From: Formosa algae
Lineage (GTDB): Bacteria > Bacteroidota > Bacteroidia > Flavobacteriales > Flavobacteriaceae
Reading direction: 5' to 3'
Length of the DNA: 64,000 bases
Assembly: GCF_001439665.1 (NCBI RefSeq)
Contig: NZ_LMAK01000004.1
Location: forward strand, 1 to 64,000
A program made the translations under genes and the position numbers. Positions 986 to 14,353 of the stretch are shown here, in pieces. Position 1 is the first letter of the stretch. Each line of letters opens with the position of its first letter. Below the pieces are notes generated by a model. That model saw only the letters and a list, made by a program, of their open reading frames with translations. It was not told where the DNA came from and made no database searches.

Positions 986-1228
986 ATGAATAATTGGGAT
1001 AGAGAGAACGGTATAGCTCAATTTGTAAGAAATAGGCGTAAAAAAGCAAAACTTACCCAGGTAGAGTTATCAGACTTCACAGGAGTAGGACTACGTTTTG
1101 TACGCGAACTTGAACAAGGAAAGCCAAATCTAATGTCAGACAAAGTAAATCAAGTACTCTTATTTTTTGGACACACATTAACACCAACACCTATAAGCGA
1201 TGAGACAAGGAGAAATATGGGTAAATAA
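986..1228 (+). CDS. hipB: HipB-like XRE-family antitoxin/repressor
   Basis: 80 aa helix-turn-helix protein. Residues 10-65 form a typical XRE (Cro/CI) fold: the segment QFVRNRRKKAKLTQVELSDF is followed by the recognition-helix region GVGLRFVRELEQGK. In HipBST and HipBA systems this subunit dimerises, binds operators and tethers the kinase complex to DNA. The ATG at 986 sits directly after three operator repeats and no Shine-Dalgarno is evident, as is common in Bacteroidota. The 3' end overlaps the next gene by 29 nt, pointing to translational coupling in a three-gene operon. The family is clear; the exact antitoxin activity is inferred. Confidence 0.88.
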   Translation: MNNWDRENGIAQFVRNRRKKAKLTQVELSDFTGVGLRFVRELEQGKPNLMSDKVNQVLLFFGHTLTPTPISDETRRNMGK

Positions 1229-1517
1229 TACACTTGCAGGTGTTTTAACTGAAGGTGACAATGATTATAATTTTGAATATAAAAAAGCATACTTAGAAAA
1301 AGAAGGTGCAATGCAAGTTAGTGTAACCCTGCCTCTACAAAAAGAACCTTTTAAATCTGAGCAATTATTTCCTTTTTTTGATGGTTTAATCCCCGAAGGT
1401 TGGTTGCTAGATATTGCACAAAAAAACTGGAAAATAAACCCAAGAGATCGTATGGGATTATTATTAACTACATGCAGAGATTGTATTGGTAATATTAGCA
1501 TAATAGAGAAAGTATGA
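1200..1517 (+). CDS. hipS: HipS-like protein (HipA N-terminal subdomain as a separate gene)
   Basis: 105 aa, matching only the N-terminal 'couple_hipA' part of HipA. Diagnostic features are the LFPFFDGLIPEGWLL segment (about residues 56-70) and the end CRDCIGNISI. In E. coli HipBST, the stand-alone HipS is the antitoxin that inhibits the HipT kinase, while HipB augments it. Length and order (hipB-hipS-hipT) fit this arrangement. It overlaps hipB by 29 nt and hipT by 4 nt (ATGA), implying coupled synthesis of all three subunits. A simple frameshift of a hipA gene is unlikely, because both halves have proper starts and the split falls at the domain boundary. Confidence 0.85.
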   Translation: MRQGEIWVNNTLAGVLTEGDNDYNFEYKKAYLEKEGAMQVSVTLPLQKEPFKSEQLFPFFDGLIPEGWLLDIAQKNWKINPRDRMGLLLTTCRDCIGNISIIEKV

Positions 1518-2470
1518 AGTATTGCTTAGCTTGTCTTAAAAAACTAAATAAAGGAGATAATAATTATCACCAAAAATGTCTTGCAGATTTTTGGCAAGAA
1601 GATACGCCTGTACTAGAGCTAGATTATGAGTTATCTCAAATCGACGATTTAGCGAAAGAAAACGTAGCACAAAGAATTATTGTCACAGGTGTACAACCTA
1701 AATTATCATTAGGCTTTACAGAAGAAAACACTCAAAATCGACTAACTATTGTTGGAGCGCTAAACGGAAGATATATTTTAAAACCGCCTTTTCAATTATA
1801 CCCACAAATGCCAGAGATTGAGGCTTTGTCCATGTTGTTAACCCAAGCTTGTGGTGTAGCAACAGTTCCTTTTTTATTAATTCCTTTAAAAGATGGATCA
1901 TTAGCATATCTAACTAAGCGAATAGATCGTAATACCACTGGTGAAAAATATCCAATGGAAGATGCTTGTCAATTTACAGAACGGTTAACAGAACATAAAT
2001 ATCGAGGTTCTTATGAGCAAATAGCAAAAGGAATTCTTCGATATACTCAAAACCCTTTACTGGAAACCGTAAAATTTTATCAGCAAGTCATTGTATCTTT
2101 CTTAATTGGGAATAATGATATGCATCTAAAGAACTTTTCTATAATAGCCAATGATAGTAAACATTATGAATTGTCTCCTGCTTATGATATGGTTGCTGTA
2201 AAAATGTTAATTCCAGAAGATCAAGAAGAATTAGCGTTAAATCTTAACGGAAAAAAGCGAAAATTAAAACGTGAAGATTTTAATGAAGCTATGTTAAAAG
2301 CTCATATTCCACAAAAAGCAATTGAAAACCTTTGGAAACGTATCGAAAAAGGAATAGGAAGTTGGGGAGCGTTAATTGATAATAGTTGTCTTAATGATAA
2401 AAACAAAGAAGATTTAAAAGTATTAATTAAGCACAGAACGAGGCAATTAGACATCCAAAATAAGATGTAA
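1514..2470 (+). CDS. hipT: HipT-like Ser/Thr kinase toxin
   Basis: 318 aa HipA-C-type kinase lacking the N-terminal subdomain. The N-terminus carries a Cys pattern (C4, C7, C22 with H19) resembling a small metal-binding knuckle. The glycine-rich loop region reads IIVTGVQPK (55-63), with Thr58 where HipA-family kinases usually carry an autophosphorylated Ser. The catalytic loop is GNNDMHLKNFS and the metal-binding segment is LSPAYDMV, so the active-site motifs are intact. Known HipT/HipA toxins phosphorylate aminoacyl-tRNA synthetases (HipT: TrpS; HipA: GltX); the target here is unknown. A 4-nt overlap couples it to hipS, and the gene ends 76 bp before hsdM. Confidence 0.86.
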   Translation: MKYCLACLKKLNKGDNNYHQKCLADFWQEDTPVLELDYELSQIDDLAKENVAQRIIVTGVQPKLSLGFTEENTQNRLTIVGALNGRYILKPPFQLYPQMPEIEALSMLLTQACGVATVPFLLIPLKDGSLAYLTKRIDRNTTGEKYPMEDACQFTERLTEHKYRGSYEQIAKGILRYTQNPLLETVKFYQQVIVSFLIGNNDMHLKNFSIIANDSKHYELSPAYDMVAVKMLIPEDQEELALNLNGKKRKLKREDFNEAMLKAHIPQKAIENLWKRIEKGIGSWGALIDNSCLNDKNKEDLKVLIKHRTRQLDIQNKM

Positions 2471-2546
2471 TTTTTGACTGTATTTTGATTATACAAATAT
2501 CAAAACAAAGTAAAATATAAAGAGTTAAAACTCATAGAATAAAACA

Positions 2547-5114
2547 ATGAATAAAAAACTAACCCTTTCATGGCTAGAAGGTTTCCTTATGGATGCCTGC
2601 GATATATTAAGAGGTAACATGGATGCCTCAGAGTTTAAAGAATACATTTTCGGGATGTTATTCTTAAAACGTTTAAGCGATAAGTACGAACAAGATCGTG
2701 CTATTCGTTTAAAAGAATTACAAGCCAAAGGATTGTCTGAAGATAAAATAAACCAAGCCTTAGAGCGTGCAAACGCCTACCAATACTATGTGCCAACTCG
2801 CGCACGTTGGAATTATAAAACTACCAACGAAGAAGGACAAGAGGTTAACGAAGGGATTCTTCACCTTAAAAAAGATGTGGGAGATCATTTAAATAAAGCT
2901 TTAGAAGCTTTAGAAGAAGAAAATCCTGATAAATTATCTGGGGTGTTAACCAATGTCAACTTTAACCGTACCATTGGTAAAAACAAAAACGCTTTAAGTG
3001 ATGAAAAACTAATAGAATTCATCACACATTTTAATAAAGTAAGTTTAACAGACGACCGTTTTGAGTTTCCAGACCTTTTAGGTACTGCCTACGAGTATTT
3101 AATAAAATATTTTGCAGATAGTGCAGGTAAAAAAGGCGGTGAATTCTATACACCAAACGAAGTGGTGAAATTATTAGTAACGCTGTTAGAACCTGAAGAA
3201 GAATCGTCAATTTACGATCCAACTTGTGGCTCTGGTGGTATGCTAATTGAAAACAAAAACTATGTAGAAGCGCGTTATGGTGATGCATCGCGTTTGAGTT
3301 TCCATGGTCAAGAATTAAGTGGTACAACATGGTCTTTATGTAAAATGAACATGTTATTCCATGATATTTTCGATGCCGAAATTCTACAAGGAGATACCAT
3401 AGCGAATCCATTACACGTAGAAAACGGCGAATTAAAACGTTTTGATATTGTTATAGCCAACCCACCATTTTCTGCAAATTATAGCGACATTAAAAACTTC
3501 CGTGATCGTTTCCATTACTGGATGCCTAAAAAGAAAAAAGCCGACTTTATGTTTGTGCAACACATGGTATCGGTGTTAAAAGACAATGGTCGTATGGCGG
3601 TAGTAATGCCACATGGGGTGTTGTTTAGAGGTAGCGAAGAAAAAAGCATGCGCCAATGGTTGGTAGACCGTGGGTATTTAGAAGCAGTGGTTGGTTTGCC
3701 ATCTGGTTTGTTTTATGGTACAGGAATTCCTGCTTCTGTATTAATTATCAATAAAAAAGGAGCAGCACAACGTAATGAGGTGTTATTTATTAATGCTGAT
3801 AGAGAATACAAAGAAGGCAAAAACCAAAACAAATTGCGTCCAGAAGATATTGCTAAAATTAGCTACATCTATAAAAGCAAAGAAAATTTAGAAGGCTATG
3901 CTAGAAACATTTCTAAAACTAATTTAGAAAAAGAAGATTACAATTTTAATATCCGTAGGTATGTAGATAATAGTCCGCCTGCCGAACCGCAAGATATCAA
4001 TGCACATTTACATGGTGGTATTCCAACTGCTGAAGTTGATGAATTAGAATCTTATTGGAATAATTACTTAAGCTTACGAACAGCCATTTATCATAAATCA
4101 CCTAAAATAGGTTATGATATTTTGGTAGATAATGTAACATCTAAAGAACAAATAAAAACTATTGTTTTAGAACACGATGATGTTGTTTTAAAAAGAAAAG
4201 AATACACCAATGGCGTAAACCAATGGTGGACAAACAATGTACCGAAACTAGAAGCCTTACCAGAGCAGAAAAATGTGTACGATTTATACAGAGATTTCTC
4301 TGTGAGCATTGCCAACGATTTTAGTGCCTTAGGGATTTTAGACTTACACAAAAGTAGAGGTGCTTTTGCTGCCTATTGGGATGTTTTAGAAACCGATTTA
4401 AAATCGATTGCAGCAAGTGGTTGGAATGCCGAATTAATTCCTGCGGAAGACATACTACAATCGCAATTCCCGGAAGTATTAGAAGAATTAGCCACTAACG
4501 AAGCACGACGCGACGAGTTAGAAGCGGTATTTAACGAAGTAAACGAATTGGAAGAAGGCGAGTTTGACGAAGACAATTACGAAGTCTTCCCAAGCGACGT
4601 ATTAAAAGAACTTAAAACTAACATTAAAACCTACAACGCTGATATTAGAGAGCTGAAGAAAGAAATTAAAGCGCTAAAAATTAGAATTAAAGCCAATGAA
4701 GATGCCACTGCATTAACACAAGAGCTAACCCAAAAACAAAAAGCCCAAACCCAAGCCGAAACCAAAAAAACAATCATTGAGCAACAGCTAGCCAAACACA
4801 CAGAACTCACCAACGAGTTAAAAACCTGCAAAGCCACCATTGCCGAAATAAAAGCCAAAAAAGAAGACTTGGTTGCCAAAGCACGCGAAAAAATAACACC
4901 AGAAGAAGCCAAAACATTAATACTTACCCGTTTTAAAGCCGTGTTACACCATACCGTAATGGATTACGTCAACCGCTACGAACGTGCTTTAATTACCGAA
5001 CTAGAAACCCGCTACACCAAATACCAAAATACATTGGTTAATATTCTAGATAATAGAGAAAAAGCAGCTAACCAATTGAATAACTTTTTAATGGAATTGG
5101 GTTATGAGGGATAA
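2547..5114 (+). CDS. hsdM: Type I restriction-modification methyltransferase subunit (HsdM), long form
   Basis: 855 aa N6-adenine methyltransferase subunit of a type I system. An HsdM N-terminal helical domain (about 8-150) begins [20 protein letters not shown]. The SAM-binding motif [10 protein letters not shown] lies near residue 225, just after FYTP at about 199, and the catalytic NPPF lies near 304 ([13 protein letters not shown]). Classical HsdM is about 500-530 aa. This one continues with a 300-aa extension that includes a Lys/Glu/Gln/Thr-rich coiled coil at about 690-790 and a helical tail. The stop overlaps hsdS by 11 nt, so the modification subunits are translationally coupled. Confidence 0.93.
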
Positions 5115-6312
5115 TTGGGAAGAATGCTTGTTTGAAGGAGAAACATCTTTAATAACGAAAGGTACAACGCCAACATCGTTAGGTAAAGAATTTAAAGAAT
5201 CTGGAATCAATTTTATCAAAGCTGAAAGTATTACTAATTCAGGTAAGTTTATACCTGAATCTTTTGCTTTTATCGACGAAGAAACTCACGCGATTTTAAG
5301 ACGTTCACAGCTTCAAGTTGATGATATTTTATTTTCAATTGCTGGAGTTCTAGGAAGAATTGCAGTTGTTGATAAAACTATTATTCCTGCTAACACTAAT
5401 CAAGCACTTGCGCTAATCAGATTATCCAATAGTTCTATTTTGGATAGAGATTACATTAAATACTATCTAAATGGAGCATTCATAAAGGATCAAATAAGAA
5501 GAATTAATGTGCAAGCTGCTCAAGCAAACTTTAGTTTAGGTGATATTGGTAGATTAAACATTCAATATCCACCTCTACCACAACAAAAAAAAATAGCCAA
5601 AATCCTATCTACCGTAGATGCCGTTATAGAAAAAACCGAAAGCGCTATTGCCAAATACCAAGCCATAAAACAGGGTTTAATGCACGATTTGTTTGAATTA
5701 CGAACAGACGATTATTGGGTTTTTTATGAACTAGGTGAAATTGCTAATATAATTGACCCGCATCCTAGTCACAGAGCACCAAGTATAGATGACAGAGGTA
5801 TTCCTTTTGTTGGTATTGGTGATATTGATGAATCAGGTAATTTAATTAAAAATGCGAGAAAGGTTTCGGAAAAAATTTTCGATGAACACTCGATGAGATA
5901 TAAATTAAGCAACAAAACAATTGGATTTGGAAGAGTTGCTACTATCGGAAAAATAATTCGATTCAAGAATTATGATTTTAAATTTACTATTTCACCAACA
6001 ATGGCAATAATAAATCCAACAAAAATCGAAAGTGATTATTTGTCCTTTGCATTAGATAGTGATTATATGAAAACCCAAATAGACAAATTATTAACAGGTT
6101 CTACAAGGTCTTCATTAGGTATCGAATTGTTAAGAAAATTAATCGTAAAGGTGCCAGTAGATGTAGATGAGAAAATTAAAATTTCAAAAGCACTTAATTC
6201 TATTGTGCAAAAAATAGATTTAGAAAAACAAGTATTAACCAAATACCAACAATTAAAAGCAGGTTTACTGCAAGATTTGTTAACGGGTAAGGTTGCCGTG
6301 AGTGTAGATTAG
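5104..6312 (+). CDS. hsdS: Type I restriction-modification specificity subunit (HsdS)
   Basis: 402 aa DNA-recognition subunit with two target-recognition domains (about 1-155 and 205-345). Each is followed by a conserved helical spacer. The central one starts [19 protein letters not shown] (about 156) and ends [13 protein letters not shown]; the C-terminal one reads [17 protein letters not shown] and ends [17 protein letters not shown]. Two intact TRDs predict a bipartite target, but the target itself cannot be read from sequence. The ATG at 5104 lies inside the end of hsdM. No second hsdS, inverted copy or recombinase is nearby, so phase-variable specificity switching is not indicated. Confidence 0.93.
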
Positions 6313-6338
6313 AAAATAAAGTAAAAAAGAATATTGAA

Positions 6339-8183
6339 ATGTCTAAAATAGAAAACCATAAATTTACCATAGAAGAAGCCTTTAACGATTGCTTTTATAT
6401 CGTTCCAGATTACCAACGCGAATATGTGTGGAGTGATAAGGAAGTAAATAAATTACTAGACGATTTAAATAACGAAATAGAGAGTGGTTCTGCTAGTGAG
6501 TATTTTATTGGTACTATTTTGGTGTCGCCAACCCAACATAAAAAACAGTATGATGTTATAGATGGGCAACAACGTTTAACTACATTTTTCTTAATGCTTT
6601 GTGCACTTAAAGCCTTGTTTAAAGGCGAGCCGCAAGAGGCAATTTTAAGCAACCTAATTAGCACTAGCTTTACAGATAGCGATGGCGAAATTAGTACCAG
6701 TTTAAAGTTAAACCCTAAATACGAAAATGCAGAAGAGGTAATTACTGCCATTATAAAATCGGGGAATCAGCCAGAAACCATTAAAGCATTGCTAAATGCA
6801 GCAGGTGTGTCACAATTTGGTGCTTTAGAAAATATTATAAATGCTTACACAACCATTTACCAGTACCTAAAATATAATTATCAAGAAACAGGAACGTTAA
6901 AAAAGTATTGGGGTAATTTATCAAACAACGTGGTATTTATTCAAATATCAACAGATGTTAGTAGTGCATTAAAGATTTTTGAAACTATTAATGAACGTGG
7001 TGTTGGTTTAAATCCTATGGATTTACTAAAAAATCTATTGTTTACAAATGTTAAGTTAGACGAGTTTACCAAACTTAAAAACGAATGGAAAAAAATAACC
7101 AATCCGTTAGAAGAAAATAAAGAAAAACCATTGCGTTTTTTACGTTATTTTTTAATGGCAAATTATACAATTTCAAACCATAGAAGTGATGGTATTGTAA
7201 GAGAAGACGAAATTTATGATTGGTTTTCTAAAAAAGAAAATATAACTGCTAGTAACTACCAAAAAGAACCTTTTGTATTTGTTCGAAAAATAATTAAAAC
7301 GGTATCTAACTTTTTATTGTTAACCAAAGGAAAAGGAAACGATGGAGAAGATAACGTCTACATGAATAATATTAGAAAACTAACAGGTGGCGGTTTTAGT
7401 TTACATTATGTAATTCTTTTAGCATCATACAATCTACCAAAAGACCTTTTTGATCATTTATTAAAACAATTAGAAACCTTTTTGTTTTACTTTATGGTTA
7501 CTAGAACTTCAACTAAAATATTAGAACGTAACTTTTCTGATTGGGCAGATGAGTTAAGAGCTATTTCAAATAGTACAGATTATGCAACTCAAAAAGTGCA
7601 ATTAAACGAGTTTATTTCTAATCGTTTCGAAAAAAGCACAATAAGTAAGCAACCAGAACTTATAGATGCTTTAAGACGCTATCATTTTTACTCGTTACAG
7701 CAATATAGAACTAGATATATTCTAGCCAAATTTACACAACATGTAAATATGGCATATAAAGGCTTGTTAAGCCCAGATAATTTAAACGATTATACCAATT
7801 TAGAAATTGAGCATATTTTACCAAATACGCCAAATCAAGAATTGTTAAACGATTTCATTTTACATCCTGATAATAAAGACAAAGAGTATCAGCAATACAA
7901 AGTAAAATTAGGGAATTTGACGCTTTTAGAGAAGCCAATTAATATAGTCGCTAGTCGAGATTTTTTTAAGAATAAAAAATCGCAATATAAAATGAGTAAG
8001 TATTACTTAACAAGTAGTTTAGATGCTCTTAATAATGTTGGGGAAAATACATCTATTACAAGAATAAATACAAAGCTTAAACCTTTTAATGATGAATGGA
8101 CTGCTAAACAAATTGATGAAAGACAAGAAATGTTATTAGAATTAGCAGCAGATATCTGGAAAATAGAACCTTTACAAGATTAA
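6339..8183 (+). CDS. DUF262/DUF1524 GmrSD-like protein inside the type I RM operon
   Basis: 614 aa with the two-domain layout of GmrSD-type modification-dependent restriction enzymes. The N-terminal DUF262 domain carries IPDYQREYVW-type (here VPDYQREYVW, about 25-34) and DGQQRLTT (about 75) motifs, a ParB-like nucleotidase fold. The C-terminal DUF1524 His-Me-type nuclease carries EHILPNT (about 490) and KLGNLTLL with a downstream Asn (about 524-535). GmrSD cuts glucosylated hydroxymethylcytosine DNA; related proteins act as standalone anti-phage nucleases. It starts 26 bp after hsdS and stops 4 bp before hsdR, so it is almost certainly co-transcribed. It could add a type IV activity against phages that evade HsdR. 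Confidence 0.88.
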   Translation: MSKIENHKFTIEEAFNDCFYIVPDYQREYVWSDKEVNKLLDDLNNEIESGSASEYFIGTILVSPTQHKKQYDVIDGQQRLTTFFLMLCALKALFKGEPQEAILSNLISTSFTDSDGEISTSLKLNPKYENAEEVITAIIKSGNQPETIKALLNAAGVSQFGALENIINAYTTIYQYLKYNYQETGTLKKYWGNLSNNVVFIQISTDVSSALKIFETINERGVGLNPMDLLKNLLFTNVKLDEFTKLKNEWKKITNPLEENKEKPLRFLRYFLMANYTISNHRSDGIVREDEIYDWFSKKENITASNYQKEPFVFVRKIIKTVSNFLLLTKGKGNDGEDNVYMNNIRKLTGGGFSLHYVILLASYNLPKDLFDHLLKQLETFLFYFMVTRTSTKILERNFSDWADELRAISNSTDYATQKVQLNEFISNRFEKSTISKQPELIDALRRYHFYSLQQYRTRYILAKFTQHVNMAYKGLLSPDNLNDYTNLEIEHILPNTPNQELLNDFILHPDNKDKEYQQYKVKLGNLTLLEKPINIVASRDFFKNKKSQYKMSKYYLTSSLDALNNVGENTSITRINTKLKPFNDEWTAKQIDERQEMLLELAADIWKIEPLQD

Positions 8184-8187
8184 TAAT

Positions 8188-11100
8188 ATGGCAGAATACA
8201 CCAATGTAGAAAAACCATTTTTAGAAAAACTAAAAGACCTTGATTGGCGAATAATCGACCAGGGGAGTTTTGGTATTCCACAAGATCCCGCCAAAAGTTT
8301 GCGTACTAGTTTTAAAGAAGTCACGCTTAAGCAAGAGTTTATAAAAGCGATTAAAAAAATAAATGTTGTTGATGGTGTAAATTGGTTAAGCGATAAACAG
8401 GTAGAAGATTTATATAATGAAACCATTGCAACCGAAAAAGCAAACTTATCTTTATTAGAAGCCAATAAGCAAGTTTTTGAAAAACTAATTGGTGTGACCA
8501 AAACCACAGTCGCAAAAAATGAAATTACAGGAGAAGAAAACCCATTAGTAAAACTCGTAGATTTTAAAAATTGGGAGAATAACGCGTTTGTAGCCATTAA
8601 CCAATTTAGAATTGTTACGCCTGGTGGGCCAAGAGATGGCATCATTCCAGACATTGTATTATTTGTAAATGGTTTGCCTTTTTGTGTTGTAGAATGTAAA
8701 GATGTAGATGTTGCAGACCCAATTTCTAGTGCGGTAGATCAGATCATGCGTTATGCGAATACACGTGGTGATGATTTTGGTTTTACAGATGGTGAAGAAC
8801 GTTTATTTCATTATAATTTATTTAGCATCGCAACCCATGGCGAAGAAGCACGTGTAGGTTCTATCTCTGGAGATTTTGAGTATTATTTAAACTGGAAAGA
8901 TATCTTTCCTGAAGCTTATAAAAATGTAGATGTTCTAAACTATGCAGCAGAAGAAACGGCTAGATATCAAAACAACGGATTACATAATGACCCAAGAGTA
9001 CGCCAAGAAGTGTTAATTAAAGGCATCTTAAACAAAGAAATCTTATTAGACATTTTACAACACTTCACCTTGTTCATGGAAATAAAGGAAGGTACTGAAA
9101 TTAAGGTGGTTTGTCGCTATCAGCAGTACCGAGCAGTAGGTAAAATATTAGATAGAATGCGTAACGAAACTTCAGGAAAAACGCGTTCTGGAGTGGTGTG
9201 GCATACGCAAGGGTCTGGTAAGTCGTTAACCATGGTGTTTTTTGTGCGTAAGTTACGTTCGCAAGCAGATTTGAAAGATTACAAAGTCATTATGATGGTA
9301 GATCGTAAAGATTTAGAAAAACAGTTATCTGCCACGGCTCGTTTAACCAATGAGTTTAAAGAAGCCAATATTGTGGGGTCGCGTAAAGAATTAGTGCCAA
9401 AGTTAAGTGGTACTGCATCTAACTTAAATATGGTTATGGTACATAAGTTTGTGCAAGAAGAATTAAAACATTCTAAAGCACTTATGAAAGCTTTTGTGGA
9501 AGAAGGCAAAGTGCCAGAATTTAAACCGTTTGACGTGGTGAACACATCAGACAGAATAGTTATTTTGATTGATGAAGCCCACAGAACCCAAGGTGGTGAT
9601 ATGGGGGATAATTTATTTACCGCATTTCCACAAGCGACTAAAATTGCATTTACAGGAACACCTTTATTAACCGATAGGCATAAACAAAAAACACACGAGC
9701 GTTTTGGTGGTACTGGCGAGTTTATCGACACCTACAAAATTAGAGAAGCTGTAGATGATCGTGCAACCTTAGATATTATTTACATCGGTAAAACAACCAA
9801 CGACAATATAAAATCGAGAGAAGCTTTTGATGCCGACTTTGAAGATGTTTTTAAAAAGCAAAGCAAGGAAGAAAAAGAAGAAATCCAAAAGCGTTACGGG
9901 ACCATGCAAGCCTATTTAGAAAACATGGACCGTTTACGAAAAATTGCTAAAGATTTAGTAAAGCATTATGTAGATGATATCTTACCAAATGGGTTTAAAG
10001 CCATGGTAGTAGGGAGTTCTATAGTGGCGGCAGCTCGTTATCAATATTTAATTGATGAGGCTTTAAAAGAGCGAGCAGCATTAGAAAGAAATAAACCGGA
10101 ACCAGATATAGACTTAATTAAAAAGATTGAATTTATAAAAATTGGTACAGTGGTTACCAAACAAGATAATAATGAGCAAGCATTTATTAGTGCAGCACGT
10201 AAAAATGCAAGAGAAATAAAAGCAGTAGATAACTTTAAAAAAGATTTTGATTATAGTACAGATGAAGCAGGGAATTATTTAAAACCAGAAACGGGTGTTG
10301 CTTTTTTATGTGTTTGCGATAAACTATTAACAGGTTTTGATGCACCTATTGCTCAAGTCATGTATTTAGACAAAAGCATTAGGGAACATGACTTGTTACA
10401 AGCTATTGCACGTGTAAATCGTACTAAAAAGGATAAAACACATGGTATTTTAGTAGACTACTTTGGCGTATCCAACCATTTAAAAGATGCCTTAAATATT
10501 TGGGGAGCAGAAGACGAAGAAGATATCAAAGAGCTGTTAGAATACTTTAGAGATATCAATAAAGAAATACCAGTGTTAGAAGCACGTTACAACCGAATGA
10601 TTCAGCTGTTTACAGACAAAGGTATAATCGATTTCAAGAAATTTGCCGAGCAACGCATGACAGATAAAGATGCAGAGTTTCAACTAGCAGAAGACTGTAT
10701 TGCATTAGCAGAATCTATTCCGTTTAGAGCACAATTTGATACCTATATAAAAGCGTTTTTTGATAGCTTGGATCTGCTGTTTCATTCGGAAGCTGCAAGA
10801 AAGTATTACATTCCAGCAAAACGTTTTGGATATCTATTAGTCCGTATTAAAAACCGTTATAAAGATCCAAGCATGGACTTAAAATGGGCAAAACCTAAGG
10901 TGCGTAAAATGATTGATGAGCATCTAGAAACCTTAGGTATCGATAGTCGAGTAGCTCCTGTTAGTTTATTGTCTAAAGATTTCGCAAAAGAAGTAGGTAA
11001 GCTTGGTAAAAACTCAAAATCTAAAGCGTCAGAAATGGAGCATGCCATTAGAAGGCATATAAAAGTAAATATTAATAAAGATCCTGCCTTATATAAACGT

Positions 11101-11532
11101 TTCCTTAAGAGAATGGAAGAAATTATAGAGCGTTATCAGGGTAACTGGGATGCTATTGTAGAAGAGTTTGAAAGAGTAAGAGAAGATCTAGAAAAAGGAA
11201 GACAAGGAGAAAATGAAGAAGAAGGATTAGATGACCAAGAATTACCATTCTATGACTTTATAATCTTTAGTGCTTTTAAAGATGAGGTAGTAACGGAAAA
11301 AGAAAAAGAAGCCTTAAAAGCATTAATTATAGAATTGGTAAACCTTTTACAAGATGCTATTAATAAACCTAATTTTTGGGGAGGCAGACCAGCCGAAATT
11401 AGAAAGTTACAAGGAGAAGTAGAAGATTTAATATCGTTTAACGATGTAGATAAAGTATCTAAATTGCATGCTAAATTAAGTGTAGAAATCATGAATTTAG
11501 CTAAACGTAGACATCAAGAATTAACCAAGTAA
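8188..11532 (+). CDS. hsdR: Type I restriction endonuclease/translocase subunit (HsdR)
   Basis: 1114 aa motor and nuclease subunit. The PD-(D/E)xK nuclease motif reads IIPDIVLF followed by VVECKD (about 150-172). SF2 translocase motifs follow: Walker A GSGKSLTM (about 341), DEAHRTQ (about 461), FTGTPL, and motif VI QAIARVNRTK. The C-terminal helical region (about 800-1110) is charged and would contact the methyltransferase core. Length fits the family (1000-1100 aa). The ATG follows the DUF262 gene by 4 bp, and the stop overlaps the next start by one base (TAATG). All key motifs are intact, so the enzyme should be active. Confidence 0.95.
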   Translation: MAEYTNVEKPFLEKLKDLDWRIIDQGSFGIPQDPAKSLRTSFKEVTLKQEFIKAIKKINVVDGVNWLSDKQVEDLYNETIATEKANLSLLEANKQVFEKLIGVTKTTVAKNEITGEENPLVKLVDFKNWENNAFVAINQFRIVTPGGPRDGIIPDIVLFVNGLPFCVVECKDVDVADPISSAVDQIMRYANTRGDDFGFTDGEERLFHYNLFSIATHGEEARVGSISGDFEYYLNWKDIFPEAYKNVDVLNYAAEETARYQNNGLHNDPRVRQEVLIKGILNKEILLDILQHFTLFMEIKEGTEIKVVCRYQQYRAVGKILDRMRNETSGKTRSGVVWHTQGSGKSLTMVFFVRKLRSQADLKDYKVIMMVDRKDLEKQLSATARLTNEFKEANIVGSRKELVPKLSGTASNLNMVMVHKFVQEELKHSKALMKAFVEEGKVPEFKPFDVVNTSDRIVILIDEAHRTQGGDMGDNLFTAFPQATKIAFTGTPLLTDRHKQKTHERFGGTGEFIDTYKIREAVDDRATLDIIYIGKTTNDNIKSREAFDADFEDVFKKQSKEEKEEIQKRYGTMQAYLENMDRLRKIAKDLVKHYVDDILPNGFKAMVVGSSIVAAARYQYLIDEALKERAALERNKPEPDIDLIKKIEFIKIGTVVTKQDNNEQAFISAARKNAREIKAVDNFKKDFDYSTDEAGNYLKPETGVAFLCVCDKLLTGFDAPIAQVMYLDKSIREHDLLQAIARVNRTKKDKTHGILVDYFGVSNHLKDALNIWGAEDEEDIKELLEYFRDINKEIPVLEARYNRMIQLFTDKGIIDFKKFAEQRMTDKDAEFQLAEDCIALAESIPFRAQFDTYIKAFFDSLDLLFHSEAARKYYIPAKRFGYLLVRIKNRYKDPSMDLKWAKPKVRKMIDEHLETLGIDSRVAPVSLLSKDFAKEVGKLGKNSKSKASEMEHAIRRHIKVNINKDPALYKRFLKRMEEIIERYQGNWDAIVEEFERVREDLEKGRQGENEEEGLDDQELPFYDFIIFSAFKDEVVTEKEKEALKALIIELVNLLQDAINKPNFWGGRPAEIRKLQGEVEDLISFNDVDKVSKLHAKLSVEIMNLAKRRHQELTK

Positions 11533-12212
11533 TGAGAGTATCTGGAGTAGACATAGTTATTCAAAAAAGTGAACGTAAAACAGTAAGCATCTTTATAGAA
11601 AGAGATGGAACTGTTTCTGCGCGTGTTCCTGAAAAACTAAGTGATGATGAAATTAGAGATATAATAAAAGCGAAAGAATACCAAATCTTTAAAAATTTAG
11701 CAGAGTGGACACAGCTTAATGAAAATGCAGTTAAGAGAGAGTATGTGAATGGACAATCGTTTTTATATCTAGGACGTAATTATCGCTTGAAATTGGTAGA
11801 TGAAAAACTGGAAGGTATTCAGTTTAAAAGGAATACATTTTTGCTAAGCAAAACAGATAAGAACAAAGCAAAGGAGCTATTTGTTACCTTTTATAAAGAT
11901 AAATTGAACAGTAAAATTCATCCAATAATTGAACGCTATAAAAATCAACTAGGAGTAGAGCCCAATCAAATTAAAGTCATGGAACTACAAAACCGTTGGG
12001 CATCTTGTACACCAAATGGTAACGTAAATTTTCATTGGAAATGTGCCATGGCACCAATTGATGTGTTGCATTATATTATTGTTCATGAATTGGTTCATTT
12101 AATTCATAACAATCATACCCAAGCCTTTTGGAATGAAGTAGATAAAGTTTTACCTAATTACCAAGAGCAAGTTAACTGGCTAAAAATTAATGGTGTTGGA
12201 ATGAGTTTGTAA
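11532..12212 (+). CDS. YgjP-like (DUF45) metallopeptidase, last gene of the RM operon
   Basis: 226 aa zinc-peptidase-like protein of the YgjP/DUF45 (SprT-related, M48-like) group. The active-site motif is HELVHLIHNNH (about 185), with the further motif RWASCTPNGNVNFHW (about 157-170) typical of the family. These proteins are very often encoded directly after hsdR in type I loci, but their role in restriction is not established. Control of HsdR level by proteolysis has precedent in ClpXP-mediated alleviation of type I restriction. The ATG shares one base with the hsdR stop, so it is translationally coupled. Confidence 0.88.
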   Translation: MRVSGVDIVIQKSERKTVSIFIERDGTVSARVPEKLSDDEIRDIIKAKEYQIFKNLAEWTQLNENAVKREYVNGQSFLYLGRNYRLKLVDEKLEGIQFKRNTFLLSKTDKNKAKELFVTFYKDKLNSKIHPIIERYKNQLGVEPNQIKVMELQNRWASCTPNGNVNFHWKCAMAPIDVLHYIIVHELVHLIHNNHTQAFWNEVDKVLPNYQEQVNWLKINGVGMSL

Positions 12213-12262
12213 AAAGTGTCTTTAATGAATTTACACAGTTTATGAGATACTGCCAAAAAAAG

Positions 12263-12607
12263 TTAACTTTCCGTATTTATGTTTAGTTTTTCTTGTGTTA
12301 CAAAATCAATAAAATCAGTTTTTAACATCCTAAAAGCGATTTTCTGTTCATCAACTATAATACTACTCATGGTAATAAATCCGCATAAAGTTGCTCCTTC
12401 GTTAGTTTTTTTCCATGTTCTATTTAGGTTTTCTAATTCCACCATTTGTTCTTCCACAAGTTCTAAATCAAACCCAGAGGCATCAATATAGAAAGTAAGT
12501 AATCGTTTATCAGAGTCCTTTATGAAATCGATGTTTTTTACTGATATACCATCTTCTAGCTTTGATAATTCCAGTTTTAATATTTGATAGATAAGGTTAT
12601 TTTGCAT
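12263..12607 (-). CDS. Hypothetical protein
   Basis: 114 aa, not recognised. The sequence is an acidic alpha/beta-like protein without signal peptide or membrane segment. It reads convergently toward the RM operon, with 50 bp between stops. Upstream on its own strand is AGGTATAATACACAC (12644-12630), whose AGGTATAATA part is identical to the downstream half of the hipB operator repeats; it may simply be a -10 element. The overlapping plus-strand ORF at 12279-12491 looks like a shadow. Coding is likely but not certain. Confidence 0.6.
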   Translation of the reverse strand: MQNNLIYQILKLELSKLEDGISVKNIDFIKDSDKRLLTFYIDASGFDLELVEEQMVELENLNRTWKKTNEGATLCGFITMSSIIVDEQKIAFRMLKTDFIDFVTQEKLNINTES

Positions 12608-12966
12608 TAGTTATATTTCTATTATTATTCGTGTGTATTATACCTAAAACTTGTCAAAATATTATCATTCATGTTGTTTATTGCAATTGTTTCTTTCAAA
12701 TTAAAACAAACAAGATTTAGCAGACTTAGTAAATGTAAACAAAAAATTGAGAATGAATTAAACTAGTATAAATCATCTTTCCGTTATAAGCCAAGCATTT
12801 ATTTAAAATCATGTAGTAGATGTACTCAATGTAGTTCTAAAAACAATATTATTTTTAAAAACAATGTAGTAAGTGTAGTAAATGCACATTTAAAACAAAT
12901 AAAATATTTTAAAGTGAATAGCCTTAATTATAGAAAAGTGTGAAAATAGTGTGAATACGATAAATA
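12608..12966. other. Non-coding spacer with short repeats between the defence block and the tRNA gene
   Basis: This is an AT-rich stretch with no credible ORF. At 12811-12880 the hexamer TGTAGT recurs (12812, 12830, 12865 and a GTGTAGTA at 12873), and AAAAACAAT occurs at 12839-12847 and 12857-12865. Clusters of short repeats beside a tRNA 3' end are common in attachment or excisionase-binding regions of integrative elements. No integrase was found in the window, so the role is unproven. Confidence 0.4.
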
Positions 12967-12996
12967 AAAAAAGGGTTTCAATTTCTTGAAACCCTT
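12963..12996 (-). terminator. Rho-independent terminator of the tRNA-Arg gene
   Basis: Perfect 10-bp stem AAGGGTTTCA / TGAAACCCTT (12971-12980 and 12987-12996) with a 6-nt loop. It is followed on the minus strand by a T-run (complement of the A-run at 12964-12970). It lies 11 bp beyond the tRNA 3' end. Confidence 0.85.
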
Positions 12997-13007
12997 ATAA
13001 ACAGTAG

Positions 13008-13081
13008 TGACCTCGACTGGATTCAAACCAGTAACCTCTTGAGCCGTAATCAAGTGCGCTATTCAGTTGCGCCACGAGGCC
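13008..13081 (-). tRNA. tRNA-Arg(ACG)
   Basis: 74-nt cloverleaf read on the minus strand. The acceptor stem GGCCTCG pairs with CGAGGTC, the discriminator base is A, and no CCA is encoded. The D-arm is GCGC...GCGC, the anticodon arm is CTTGA-TTACGGC-TCAAG with anticodon ACG, and the T-arm is ACTGG-TTTGAAT-CCAGT. ACG is wobble-modified to ICG in bacteria and reads CGU/CGC/CGA. The 3' end faces the hipBST/RM block, the orientation used by many integrative elements. Confidence 0.95.
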
Positions 13082-13221
13082 TTTTTTGTGGGTGCAAATA
13101 TATGAGGTTTCATAATGTTTACCAAATATATTCTTAGGTTTTTTTGTTTTTTTTTGAGCTAAATTCATTTTGTGTATTCAAACAGAATTTAAGTCCTTAA
13201 ATATGAGTTTTGTGTGAGGAA

Positions 13222-13503
13222 TTAAACTATTTCTGCACTTAAACCAGCATCTAATAATTTAGAGCAACGTGGCTCTAAATCTTTATACGGACCTGTTTTA
13301 ACTGTGCATTTTCCTTTGTAGTGTACAATTATAGAACATTGCTCTGCTTGCTCTGGTGTGTGTTCGCAAGCTGCAATAAGTGTATCTATAACATGATCGA
13401 AGGTGTTTACTTCATCATTATATAGCACAATCTCATTTTCATTTTCTTTTTTTGTATCGGTTTCAACGAGAACCTCTTCTAGTACTTCTTCCTTAGTGCT
13501 CAT
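13222..13503 (-). CDS. clpS: ATP-dependent Clp protease adaptor ClpS
   Basis: 93 aa ClpS-family adaptor that binds the ClpA/ClpC N-domain and delivers N-degron substrates. The core begins VLYNDEVNTFDHVIDTLIAA (about 27-46), which contains the conserved N-D-x-x-x-T/F substrate pocket. The end KLLDAGLSAEIV matches the family's VxxLxxAGLxAxI. The acidic N-terminal tail (1-25) is flexible. It is encoded 16 bp downstream of prmA on the same strand and is probably co-transcribed. Confidence 0.93.
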   Translation of the reverse strand: MSTKEEVLEEVLVETDTKKENENEIVLYNDEVNTFDHVIDTLIAACEHTPEQAEQCSIIVHYKGKCTVKTGPYKDLEPRCSKLLDAGLSAEIV

Positions 13504-13519
13504 CTGTTTTACTTTTCTA

Positions 13520-14353
13520 CTAATTTAAAAATTTTAGAGCAACCCAATTATTTCGTTCTAATTTTTCGCTAATTTTTAACATATTTTTAGTGCATTCTGC
13601 TTCAATTGTAGGAATATCGTCGTTATAAAACCCACTTAAAAACAATGCGCCGTTAGTATTTAGGCAAGATGCATAGGTTTTAATATCGTTTAAAAGAATG
13701 TTTCTATTAATATTAGCAATAATAATATCGTAGCTTTTTCCTGCTAATAAAGATGCTTCGCCTTCATAAACCGTAATGTTTTTACACTGATTACGTTCTA
13801 CGTTTTCTAAACTGTTTAAGTAGCACCAATTATCTATATCTATAGCATCTAATTGTTTTGCACCTTTAAATTCTGCTAAAATGGCTAAAACGCCAGTCCC
13901 GCAACCCATATCTAAAACTGTTTTGCCTTCAAAATCTGTTTTTAAAATATGCTGAATCATCATGTGAGTGGTTTCATGATGTCCCGTTCCAAAACTCATT
14001 TTTGGTTCGATAATAATATCGTATTTGGTGTCGAATTTTTCATGAAATGGTGCTCGAACGGCACATACATCGTCTACAACTATTGGGTTAAAGTTTTTTT
14101 CCCATTCTTCATTCCAATTGGTTTGTTCAATATCTTCAAAAGTAAACGTGATTTCAAATTCTTCGGAATCAAGAATCTGTATGTCTTCAAGAATATCTTC
14201 GCGCCATTCTTCCTTCTGAATGTATGCTGTTACGCCTGTTTCAGTTTCTACAAAACTCTCAAATCCTGCATAGCCAAGTTCAGCAATTAATATTTCTACA
14301 CCGGGTTGTAAAGGCGCTACATTAAAATCGTAACCTATATATATTTCTGCCAT
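13520..14353 (-). CDS. prmA: Ribosomal protein L11 methyltransferase
   Basis: 277 aa SAM-dependent methyltransferase that trimethylates ribosomal protein L11. An N-terminal substrate-recognition domain (about 1-110) is followed by a Rossmann catalytic domain: MSFGTGHHETTHMM (about 129-142), SAM motif I VLDMGCGTGVLAILA (about 155-169), and the NPPY-like segment IIANINRNILL (about 211-221). Length is usual for PrmA. The start lies about 70 bp from the divergent porin gene, sharing a short promoter region. It probably forms an operon with clpS. Confidence 0.94.
   Translation of the reverse strand: MAEIYIGYDFNVAPLQPGVEILIAELGYAGFESFVETETGVTAYIQKEEWREDILEDIQILDSEEFEITFTFEDIEQTNWNEEWEKNFNPIVVDDVCAVRAPFHEKFDTKYDIIIEPKMSFGTGHHETTHMMIQHILKTDFEGKTVLDMGCGTGVLAILAEFKGAKQLDAIDIDNWCYLNSLENVERNQCKNITVYEGEASLLAGKSYDIIIANINRNILLNDIKTYASCLNTNGALFLSGFYNDDIPTIEAECTKNMLKISEKLERNNWVALKFLN

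Follow-up and report, generated by a model that had tools for sequence, protein, structure and literature searches.

Embedded GmrSD-type nucleases

Type I restriction–modification (RM) domains are the commonest defence neighbours of GmrSD proteins (Machnicka et al. 2015, PMC4619093). RloF of Campylobacter jejuni (R-linked ORF F), as cited in PMC4619093 and PMC11411939, is a DUF262 protein encoded between hsdS and hsdR. TgvAB, located within a type I operon of V. cholerae, protects against Tevenvirinae, and complementary barriers have been proposed for TgvAB and the type I enzyme (Vizzarro et al. 2024, PMC11411939). According to the same report, tgvAB homologues outside type I clusters are 17 times commoner than the five-gene operon, and the TgvAB protection pattern is similar when the HsdR nuclease is mutated. 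With regard to BREX, Picton et al. (2021, PMC8565348) reported that BREX and BrxU of pEFER give complementary protection, BrxU cutting 5mC DNA, and a 2026 survey names GmrSD among the auxiliary effectors of BREX (PMC12839542). HEC-05 is equated with BrxU in PMC11411939, and HEC-06 has been reported to be antiviral and to act independently. The prototype GmrSD is said to act on glucosylated sites only, and in print PrrC serves as the model for genes lying inside a type I locus. DndI and SspE sense phosphorothioate via a P-x-Y-Q patch, that is, a mark of the host and not of the phage.

In this work, we focus on a gmrSD-like gene of Formosa algae found in the first 64,000 nucleotides of contig NZ_LMAK01000004.1, hereafter called the window. 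Its operon layout and the idea of two barriers are already in print in the reports on RloF, TgvAB and BrxU in BREX. New in this analysis are the contexts beyond type I occupied by its clade, and the exchangeable contents of the slot in which it lies. Outside the embedded-defence preprint of Payne et al. (2024), the literature searched yielded no statement of a single clade, with members above 92% identity, spanning type I, type III and BREX-like systems.

The gmrSD-like gene and its host operon

The gene belongs to a run of five genes on the + strand (window 2547-12212), separated by -11, 26, 4 and -1 bp.

2547..5114, + strand: hsdM, type I adenine methyltransferase subunit (855 aa; HsdM_N, N6_Mtase, NPPF)
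5104..6312, + strand: hsdS, specificity subunit (402 aa; Methylase_S in two stretches; 11-bp overlap with hsdM)
6313..6338, + strand: hsdS-gmrSD junction (26 bp; site of extra genes in the related loci L034 and L079)
6339..8183, + strand: gmrSD-like gene (614 aa, ATG start, no internal stop)
8184..8187, + strand: gmrSD-hsdR junction (4 bp; site of a McrB-McrC pair in L079)
8188..11532, + strand: hsdR, restriction/translocase subunit (1114 aa; HSDR_N, SWI2_SNF2; PD...ECK, GSGKS, DEAH)
11532..12212, + strand: YgjP-like metallopeptidase gene (HELVH; one-base overlap with the hsdR stop)

All three subunits of a type I RM enzyme, HsdM, HsdS and HsdR, are thus encoded with their catalytic motifs. 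The YgjP-like gene goes with the operon and is tied to this hsdR subfamily, ygjP being found by tblastn beside hsdR in 26 of 31 HsdR-selected loci. The preliminary description placed a DUF262+DUF1524 protein between hsdS and hsdR with gaps of 26 and 4 bp, and the ORF, the Pfam domains and the spacing all agree with it.

The spacing fits one transcript, and the five genes are probably co-transcribed. Consensus scans of positions 2400-13600 returned 43 sigma-70-like sites against 45.6 expected, and five terminator-like sites against 5.6 expected. Two of these five lie on the + strand, within hsdM (2683) and hsdS (5237), and none was found on that strand from gmrSD to the end of ygjP. A Bacteroidetes-type promoter pattern occurred in none of three stretches, including the one before hsdM, which leaves it without a positive control. 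These promoter and terminator scans neither prove nor exclude an internal promoter. The claim that one transcript supplies two barriers stands in part: the spacing fits, and a second, different nuclease barrier is a sensible reading, of a logic that others have tested for TgvAB and BrxU; the idea itself had been published.

Upstream of hsdM (window 986-2470, + strand) are three small genes, the first coding for an 80-aa protein resembling a helix-turn-helix regulator, the others for two HipA domain proteins, one N-terminal (105 aa) and one C-terminal (318 aa). This split layout resembles that of HipBST. HipA parts also precede hsdM in the related locus L033, and tblastn detected none in L079.

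The protein carries both Pfam domains of the GmrSD family in a single chain, joined by a helical middle part.

Residues 13-235: DUF262/GmrSD_N (PF03235; Pfam E 4.3e-42, above the curated cut-off)
Residues 437-601: DUF1524/GmrSD_C His-Me nuclease domain (PF07510; Pfam E 2.7e-18, above the curated cut-off)

No NCBIfam model matched it at E 0.001. The top PADLOC family is Orf5 (PDLC02688, E 1.3e-89), followed by HEC-06 (PDLC04157, E 4.8e-68, residues 1-608), with far weaker scores for SspE (5e-21), mREase_IV (1.1e-10) and HEC-05 (E 1.2e-10, residues 7-43 only). When the family motifs listed in PMC11411939 are followed, the DUF262 part harbours Q26R27, DGQQR (D75-R79) and F214..N218 (FxxxN), and the His-Me finger (H...N...H/N) harbours H492, N526 and N535. 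In an alignment of 56 sequences, the window's included, Q26R27, DGQQR, F214, N218, N526 and N535 are invariant, and H492 is kept in 55. With the three relatives whose proteins are 85-91% identical to the window's (L033, L034 and L079), 151 of 226, 255 of 399 and 206 of 309 nucleotide differences fall at third codon positions, as under purifying selection. The ORF is thus confirmed as intact and conserved beyond chance.

Comparison with the described systems brings out partial likenesses. The window gene shares with RloF the position between hsdS and hsdR, as RloF is cited, and the likeness drawn here is one of position and DUF262 domain. Like the TgvAB genes in their published setting, it codes for a GmrSD-family protein amid type I genes, with a dual-barrier hypothesis already attached; however, TgvAB needs two DUF262 proteins, whereas this operon has a single DUF262-DUF1524 protein. 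A TgvA-like second protein was sought and is not in the operon. Elsewhere in the genome, PF03235 has just one more match, on another contig (L002, contig C48:12627-13082), in a 464-aa protein with a C-terminal classical HNH domain in place of DUF1524. BrxU, as published, is also a single-chain DUF262+DUF1524 protein inserted in a methylation-based defence operon, where it forms an independent layer, but its sequence relation to the window protein is weak (HEC-05 E 1.2e-10 versus HEC-06 4.8e-68). HEC-06 gives a full-length profile match, although Orf5 scores better; it is named for its Hma context, as an Hma-embedded candidate, and the window gene is hosted by a type I RM operon and not by Hma.

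Predicted fold

An AlphaFold2 model built from a 38-sequence alignment (mean pLDDT 85.0, pTM 0.71) was compared with solved structures. At E <0.001, Foldseek retrieved only DndI (9jfl) and SspE from the PDB, and by sequence 9jfl alone passes E 0.001 (E 3.4e-6). With VIA-align, DndI (9jfl_A) gave Z 25.4 over 535 aligned residues at an rmsd of 5.3, followed by SspE (7drs_A, Z 20.4) and BrxU (Z 13.4); the larger rmsd of the latter two suggests a different domain placement, so that Z-scores alone do not rank kinship. DndI and SspE, which are phosphorothioate-sensing DUF262-DUF1524 nickases, are the closest solved full-length folds, at 14-16% sequence identity in the structural alignments. The model has their DUF262-DUF1524 architecture and also the P-x-Y-Q patch, as PDYQ in 52 of the 56 sequences and PDFQ in 4. 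This patch falls within a conserved QR motif common to the DUF262 proteins aligned.

Defence contexts of the clade

Species genomes of GTDB were scanned with the GmrSD protein. Among the 66 loci retrieved, from several phyla, most are 57-65% identical to the window protein; one with a 33-residue match (L098) was dropped, leaving 65. A recognised multi-gene defence system adjoins the gene in 33 of the 65, context labels coming from Pfam/PADLOC scans for chosen representatives and from tblastn similarity for the other loci. In the type I setting, eight copies lie between hsdS and hsdR (L033, L034, L035, L066, L077, L078, L079, L088), and five just after hsdR or hsdR-ygjP (L043, L045, L070, L073, L090), with an HSDR_N match at matching coordinates in all five genomes. 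In L093 (3114-12059), the gene for a 37% identical GmrSD has an hsdM on either side, within one type I operon of the order hsdM-gmrSD-hsdM-hsdS-hsdR-like. Two type I look-alikes were left uncounted: L067, with an HsdR fragment at the contig edge, and L094, with hsdS downstream.

The remaining systems are of other kinds. The gene follows type III mod-res in three loci (L053, L080, L097), a BREX-like PglX-BrxC-PglZ set in five (L042, L046, L052, L057, L068), and another BREX-like set, N6_N4 methylase, BrxHI and PglZ, in five more (L040, L041, L051, L060, L089). L041 and L060 have one additional gene between the BREX-like system and gmrSD, whereas for L057 and L089 no more than the end of the system is visible on the contig. 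Five copies accompany a methylase and an SNF2 helicase (L062, L074, L076, L096, L072), and one follows Wadjet JetC-JetD (L082). All 33 systems except Wadjet are of a methyltransferase-carrying type; the methylase gene itself was found by Pfam/PADLOC in the scanned L040, L042, L053, L062, L072 and L093, and a DUF1156 protein in L096.

Six further copies precede a LOTUS protein (L036, L038, L044, L047, L048, L050); five of these lie on contigs that extend far enough to show a recombinase gene, and all five have one. Another 26 copies have no recognised neighbour, partly due to contig ends. At the LOTUS loci, gmrSD lies directly before the gene for a 283-aa OST-HTH/LOTUS protein, and two divergent genes without Pfam family (scanned in L044) complete the picture, the recombinase being of the serine type. 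These loci look like a mobile island.

Copies from different contexts can be nearly identical. Seven copies from six contexts, hand-picked from short tree branches, share 92.4-96.2% pairwise identity, and three others, from three contexts, share 92.2-93.5%; none of the copies in either set exceeds about 60% identity to the window protein. Stops or frameshifts affect 5 of 60 matched ranges. Among plasmids, 1163 records match the GmrSD protein, one at 60-80% identity and the rest lower.

Descent of the clade and of its type I neighbours

A maximum-likelihood tree was inferred for the window protein and 55 relatives, leaving out the partial L085, L087, L089, L090, L091 and L098 as well as L075, L082, L083, L096 and L097, which have stops in the matched range. 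With context labels placed on 35 of its rows, 16 changes are required against a shuffle mean of 23.3, a value as low being reached in none of 200 shuffles; ten long branches are flagged in this tree, and long rows may in places be wrongly joined. Copies from the hsdS-hsdR slot require two changes, as do the LOTUS copies, each as low in none of 500 shuffles. The five other context labels are no more clustered than in the shuffles. The nearest kin of the window gene (L033, L034 and L079) without exception occupy the type I slot. Although the clade as a whole moves between systems, the group to which the window gene belongs has kept to this slot.

Over nine loci with gmrSD in the type I slot, GmrSD and HsdR distances correlate with r 0.91, falling to r 0.49 without three close Flavobacteriaceae; moreover, L077 and L088 have HsdR proteins 80% identical and GmrSD proteins 64% identical. 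Both observations indicate that the linkage is loose outside close kin. Among 397 Flavobacteriaceae genomes, 64, own included, match GmrSD, the best other match (E 2.0e-26) having internal stops, and 170, own included, match HsdR, the best-scoring other being 34% identical. An HsdR match occurs in all six genomes of the window's genus, the best other at 32%, and in 7 of 13 genomes from the genus of the Lacinutrix genome, where the only close match is that of L079 itself. Apart from that of L079, these genomes thus gave no close HsdR relative with which the presence of gmrSD could be compared.

Contents of the hsdS-hsdR slot

The three closest operons delimit what is shared. DNA homology with L033, L034 and L079 stops at the ygjP stop (window 12203-12214), and starts at hsdM in L034 and L079, and further upstream, at the hip genes, in L033. 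In L034, a 293-aa gene without Pfam family lies ahead of gmrSD. In L079, from Lacinutrix mariniflava, the slot contains in order a REase-ARP nuclease, an 86-aa ORF, a 308-aa protein, gmrSD, an AAA_5-McrC (McrBC) pair and hsdR; its alignment with the window runs over gmrSD from 6337 to 8168 and resumes with hsdR from 8182, the McrBC pair lying in between. A second copy of the hsdS 3' end (L079:7972-8052; 81 nt, 80% identical) stands between the REase-ARP cargo and gmrSD of L079, and looks like the scar of a cassette exchange. REase-ARP, GmrSD and McrB-McrC are thus stacked between hsdS and hsdR at L079:5461-13990. The hsdS of this locus comes out as two ORFs, of 127 aa and 238 aa, and may therefore be broken or recombined. 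Other clade members have further variations: the L078 slot holds a 258-aa protein and a DUF4357 protein, and a YhcG-like nuclease gene lies between hsdM and hsdS in L066.

A panel chosen by HsdR was drawn from a sample of 343 Planctomycetota and 395 Bacteroidota genomes, of which 33, own genome uncounted, have an HsdR match of at least 35% identity at E <1e-60. G455 (the centre of the search) was dropped, as were eight truncated, fragmentary or contig-edge cases (G603, G659, G1100, G1014, G1104, G1097, G1079, G1010), the fragments G1039 and G1127, and G1138 (35% over 2-788), leaving 21 operons with HsdR 36-60% identical. The slot is empty, with no ORF of at least 100 aa, in nine (G597, G519, G602, G1018, G998, G983, G1112, G1130, G1034), holds a DUF262 protein in four and something else in eight. 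One of the four DUF262 proteins (G453) is of the window's gmrSD clade, the others being G754 and G875, with both domains, and G940, with DUF262 only. The eight comprise four Schlafen/AlbA_2 proteins (G639, G755, G1180, and G547, in one frame with hsdS), an Abi_C protein (G618), a 136-aa PDDEXK_3 protein (G995), unidentified large genes (G1179), and an integrase-core (IS-like) gene with unidentified genes (G649). Since DUF262 proteins of distant lineages occupy the same position, the slot has been entered more than once; it is a cargo port.

Frequent absence from like operons, which the preliminary description held to speak against its reading, is borne out in part: nine of the 21 slots are empty and one has this clade, whereas all three operons with HsdR 83-93% identical keep gmrSD, having been found with the gmrSD protein as bait. 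In other respects, a single open frame at L205:7327-10005, immediately ahead of hsdR, combines hsdS domains with a Schlafen/AlbA_2-HATPase part, possibly a fusion of specificity subunit and cargo. A TIR-domain protein is encoded between hsdM and hsdS in an HsdR-related Planctomycetota operon (L213:3846-4745).

Function, and the alternatives

We consider it probable that the window gene encodes a DUF262-DUF1524 nuclease that is autonomous and made of a single chain, following the logic of GmrSD and BrxU, and that the type I operon carries it between hsdS and hsdR as exchangeable cargo. HsdMSR would restrict invading DNA devoid of the host adenine methylation, and phages with heavily modified bases would escape it. 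The DUF262 domain would then sense modified DNA, with nucleotide binding or hydrolysis at the DGQQR motif, and permit its nicking or cleavage by the DUF1524 His-Me finger; gmrSD and hsd genes would have a transcript in common, but not subunits. The cutting of modified phage DNA is a property carried over from the family, and the substrate and phage protection of the window gene are likewise presumed.

Of the other explanations, the one that fares best, although we regard it as unlikely, is that the protein reads a mark of the host, as SspE and DndI do, in this case N6-methyladenine set by the neighbouring methyltransferase, and cuts DNA lacking it. That DndI and SspE are the nearest folds leaves room for such a reading, to which the conserved P-x-Y-Q patch and the methyltransferase-carrying type of 32 of the 33 recognised systems also lend themselves. 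However, copies 92-96% alike accompany systems of type I, of type III and of the BREX-like kind, whose methylated sequences would differ, and at 6 of 65 loci the sole recognised neighbours are a LOTUS protein and a recombinase. The tyrosine of the patch, moreover, belongs to the motif common to the DUF262 proteins aligned. Phosphorothioate itself is unlikely as the mark, since the DndC model TIGR03183 found no match in the 82 contigs of the own genome, in a search that gave five signals, none over the cut-off, in 14 control genomes. Gating of the gmrSD-like protein by phosphorothioate, with a partner of the DndC kind, was accordingly set aside as unlikely.

A somewhat lower probability attaches to the protein guarding the type I enzyme or working with it, as PrrC does with EcoprrI in the published model. 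As a guard, it would be kept inactive by HsdMSR and released once a phage anti-restriction protein blocks this enzyme; as a partner, it would be an extra nuclease subunit. The tight spacing between hsdS and hsdR and the clustering of slot copies on the tree both fit, and a partner would also explain why the window lineage has kept to type I operons. On the other hand, other members of the clade are found behind type III, BREX-like and MTase-SNF2 systems, and in related hsd operons 9 of 21 slots are empty and 11 hold other families or other DUF262 lineages. The TgvAB pattern reported with the HsdR nuclease mutation (PMC11411939) points the same way. Relatives nearly identical to each other, occurring in type I, type III, BREX-like and other contexts, indirectly make dependence on Hsd subunits unlikely. 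The preliminary description had raised a physical link to these subunits; as the 92-96%-alike relatives follow so many systems, this is unlikely for the window copy too, although the case for its probable independence draws on relatives only about 60% identical to it.

It is slightly more doubtful again that the nuclease, while independent of Hsd, responds to another signature, such as a non-cytosine modified base or a DNA structure. Genes for C5-cytosine methyltransferases were present in 25 of the 42 clade-holding genomes scanned (out of 59), those of L033 and L034 included, a coexistence that speaks weakly against plain 5mC as a general target, unlike the case of BrxU. Yet such a gene need not be expressed, or its product may modify few sites, and none was found in the own genome or in that of L079. 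Furthermore, the limitation of the prototype GmrSD to glucosylated sites, as described, means that coexistence with 5mC does not count against a GmrSD-like substrate.

Very improbable, in our estimation, is a general plug-in effector for adenine-methylating systems that would take N6-methyladenine in any sequence as the mark of self. The reading keeps some footing, nearly all partner systems carrying a methyltransferase and the model fold being nearest to DndI and SspE; if true, one protein would be the second effector in operons of type I, of type III and of the BREX-like kind alike. Least credible of all is a neutral hitch-hiker between hsdS and hsdR: related operons do lack the gene and 5 of 60 matched ranges are interrupted, but the strong third-position excess against three relatives and motifs identical in 55 or 56 of 56 sequences tell against it.

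Under the preferred reading of an autonomous, exchangeable nuclease, the clade looks like a portable second layer, its 92-96%-alike members being appended to several kinds of system, and the L079 operon goes further by combining a type I enzyme, GmrSD and McrBC. Together, the portable clade and this stacked operon make the idea of layered barriers testable with one family in several natural contexts.
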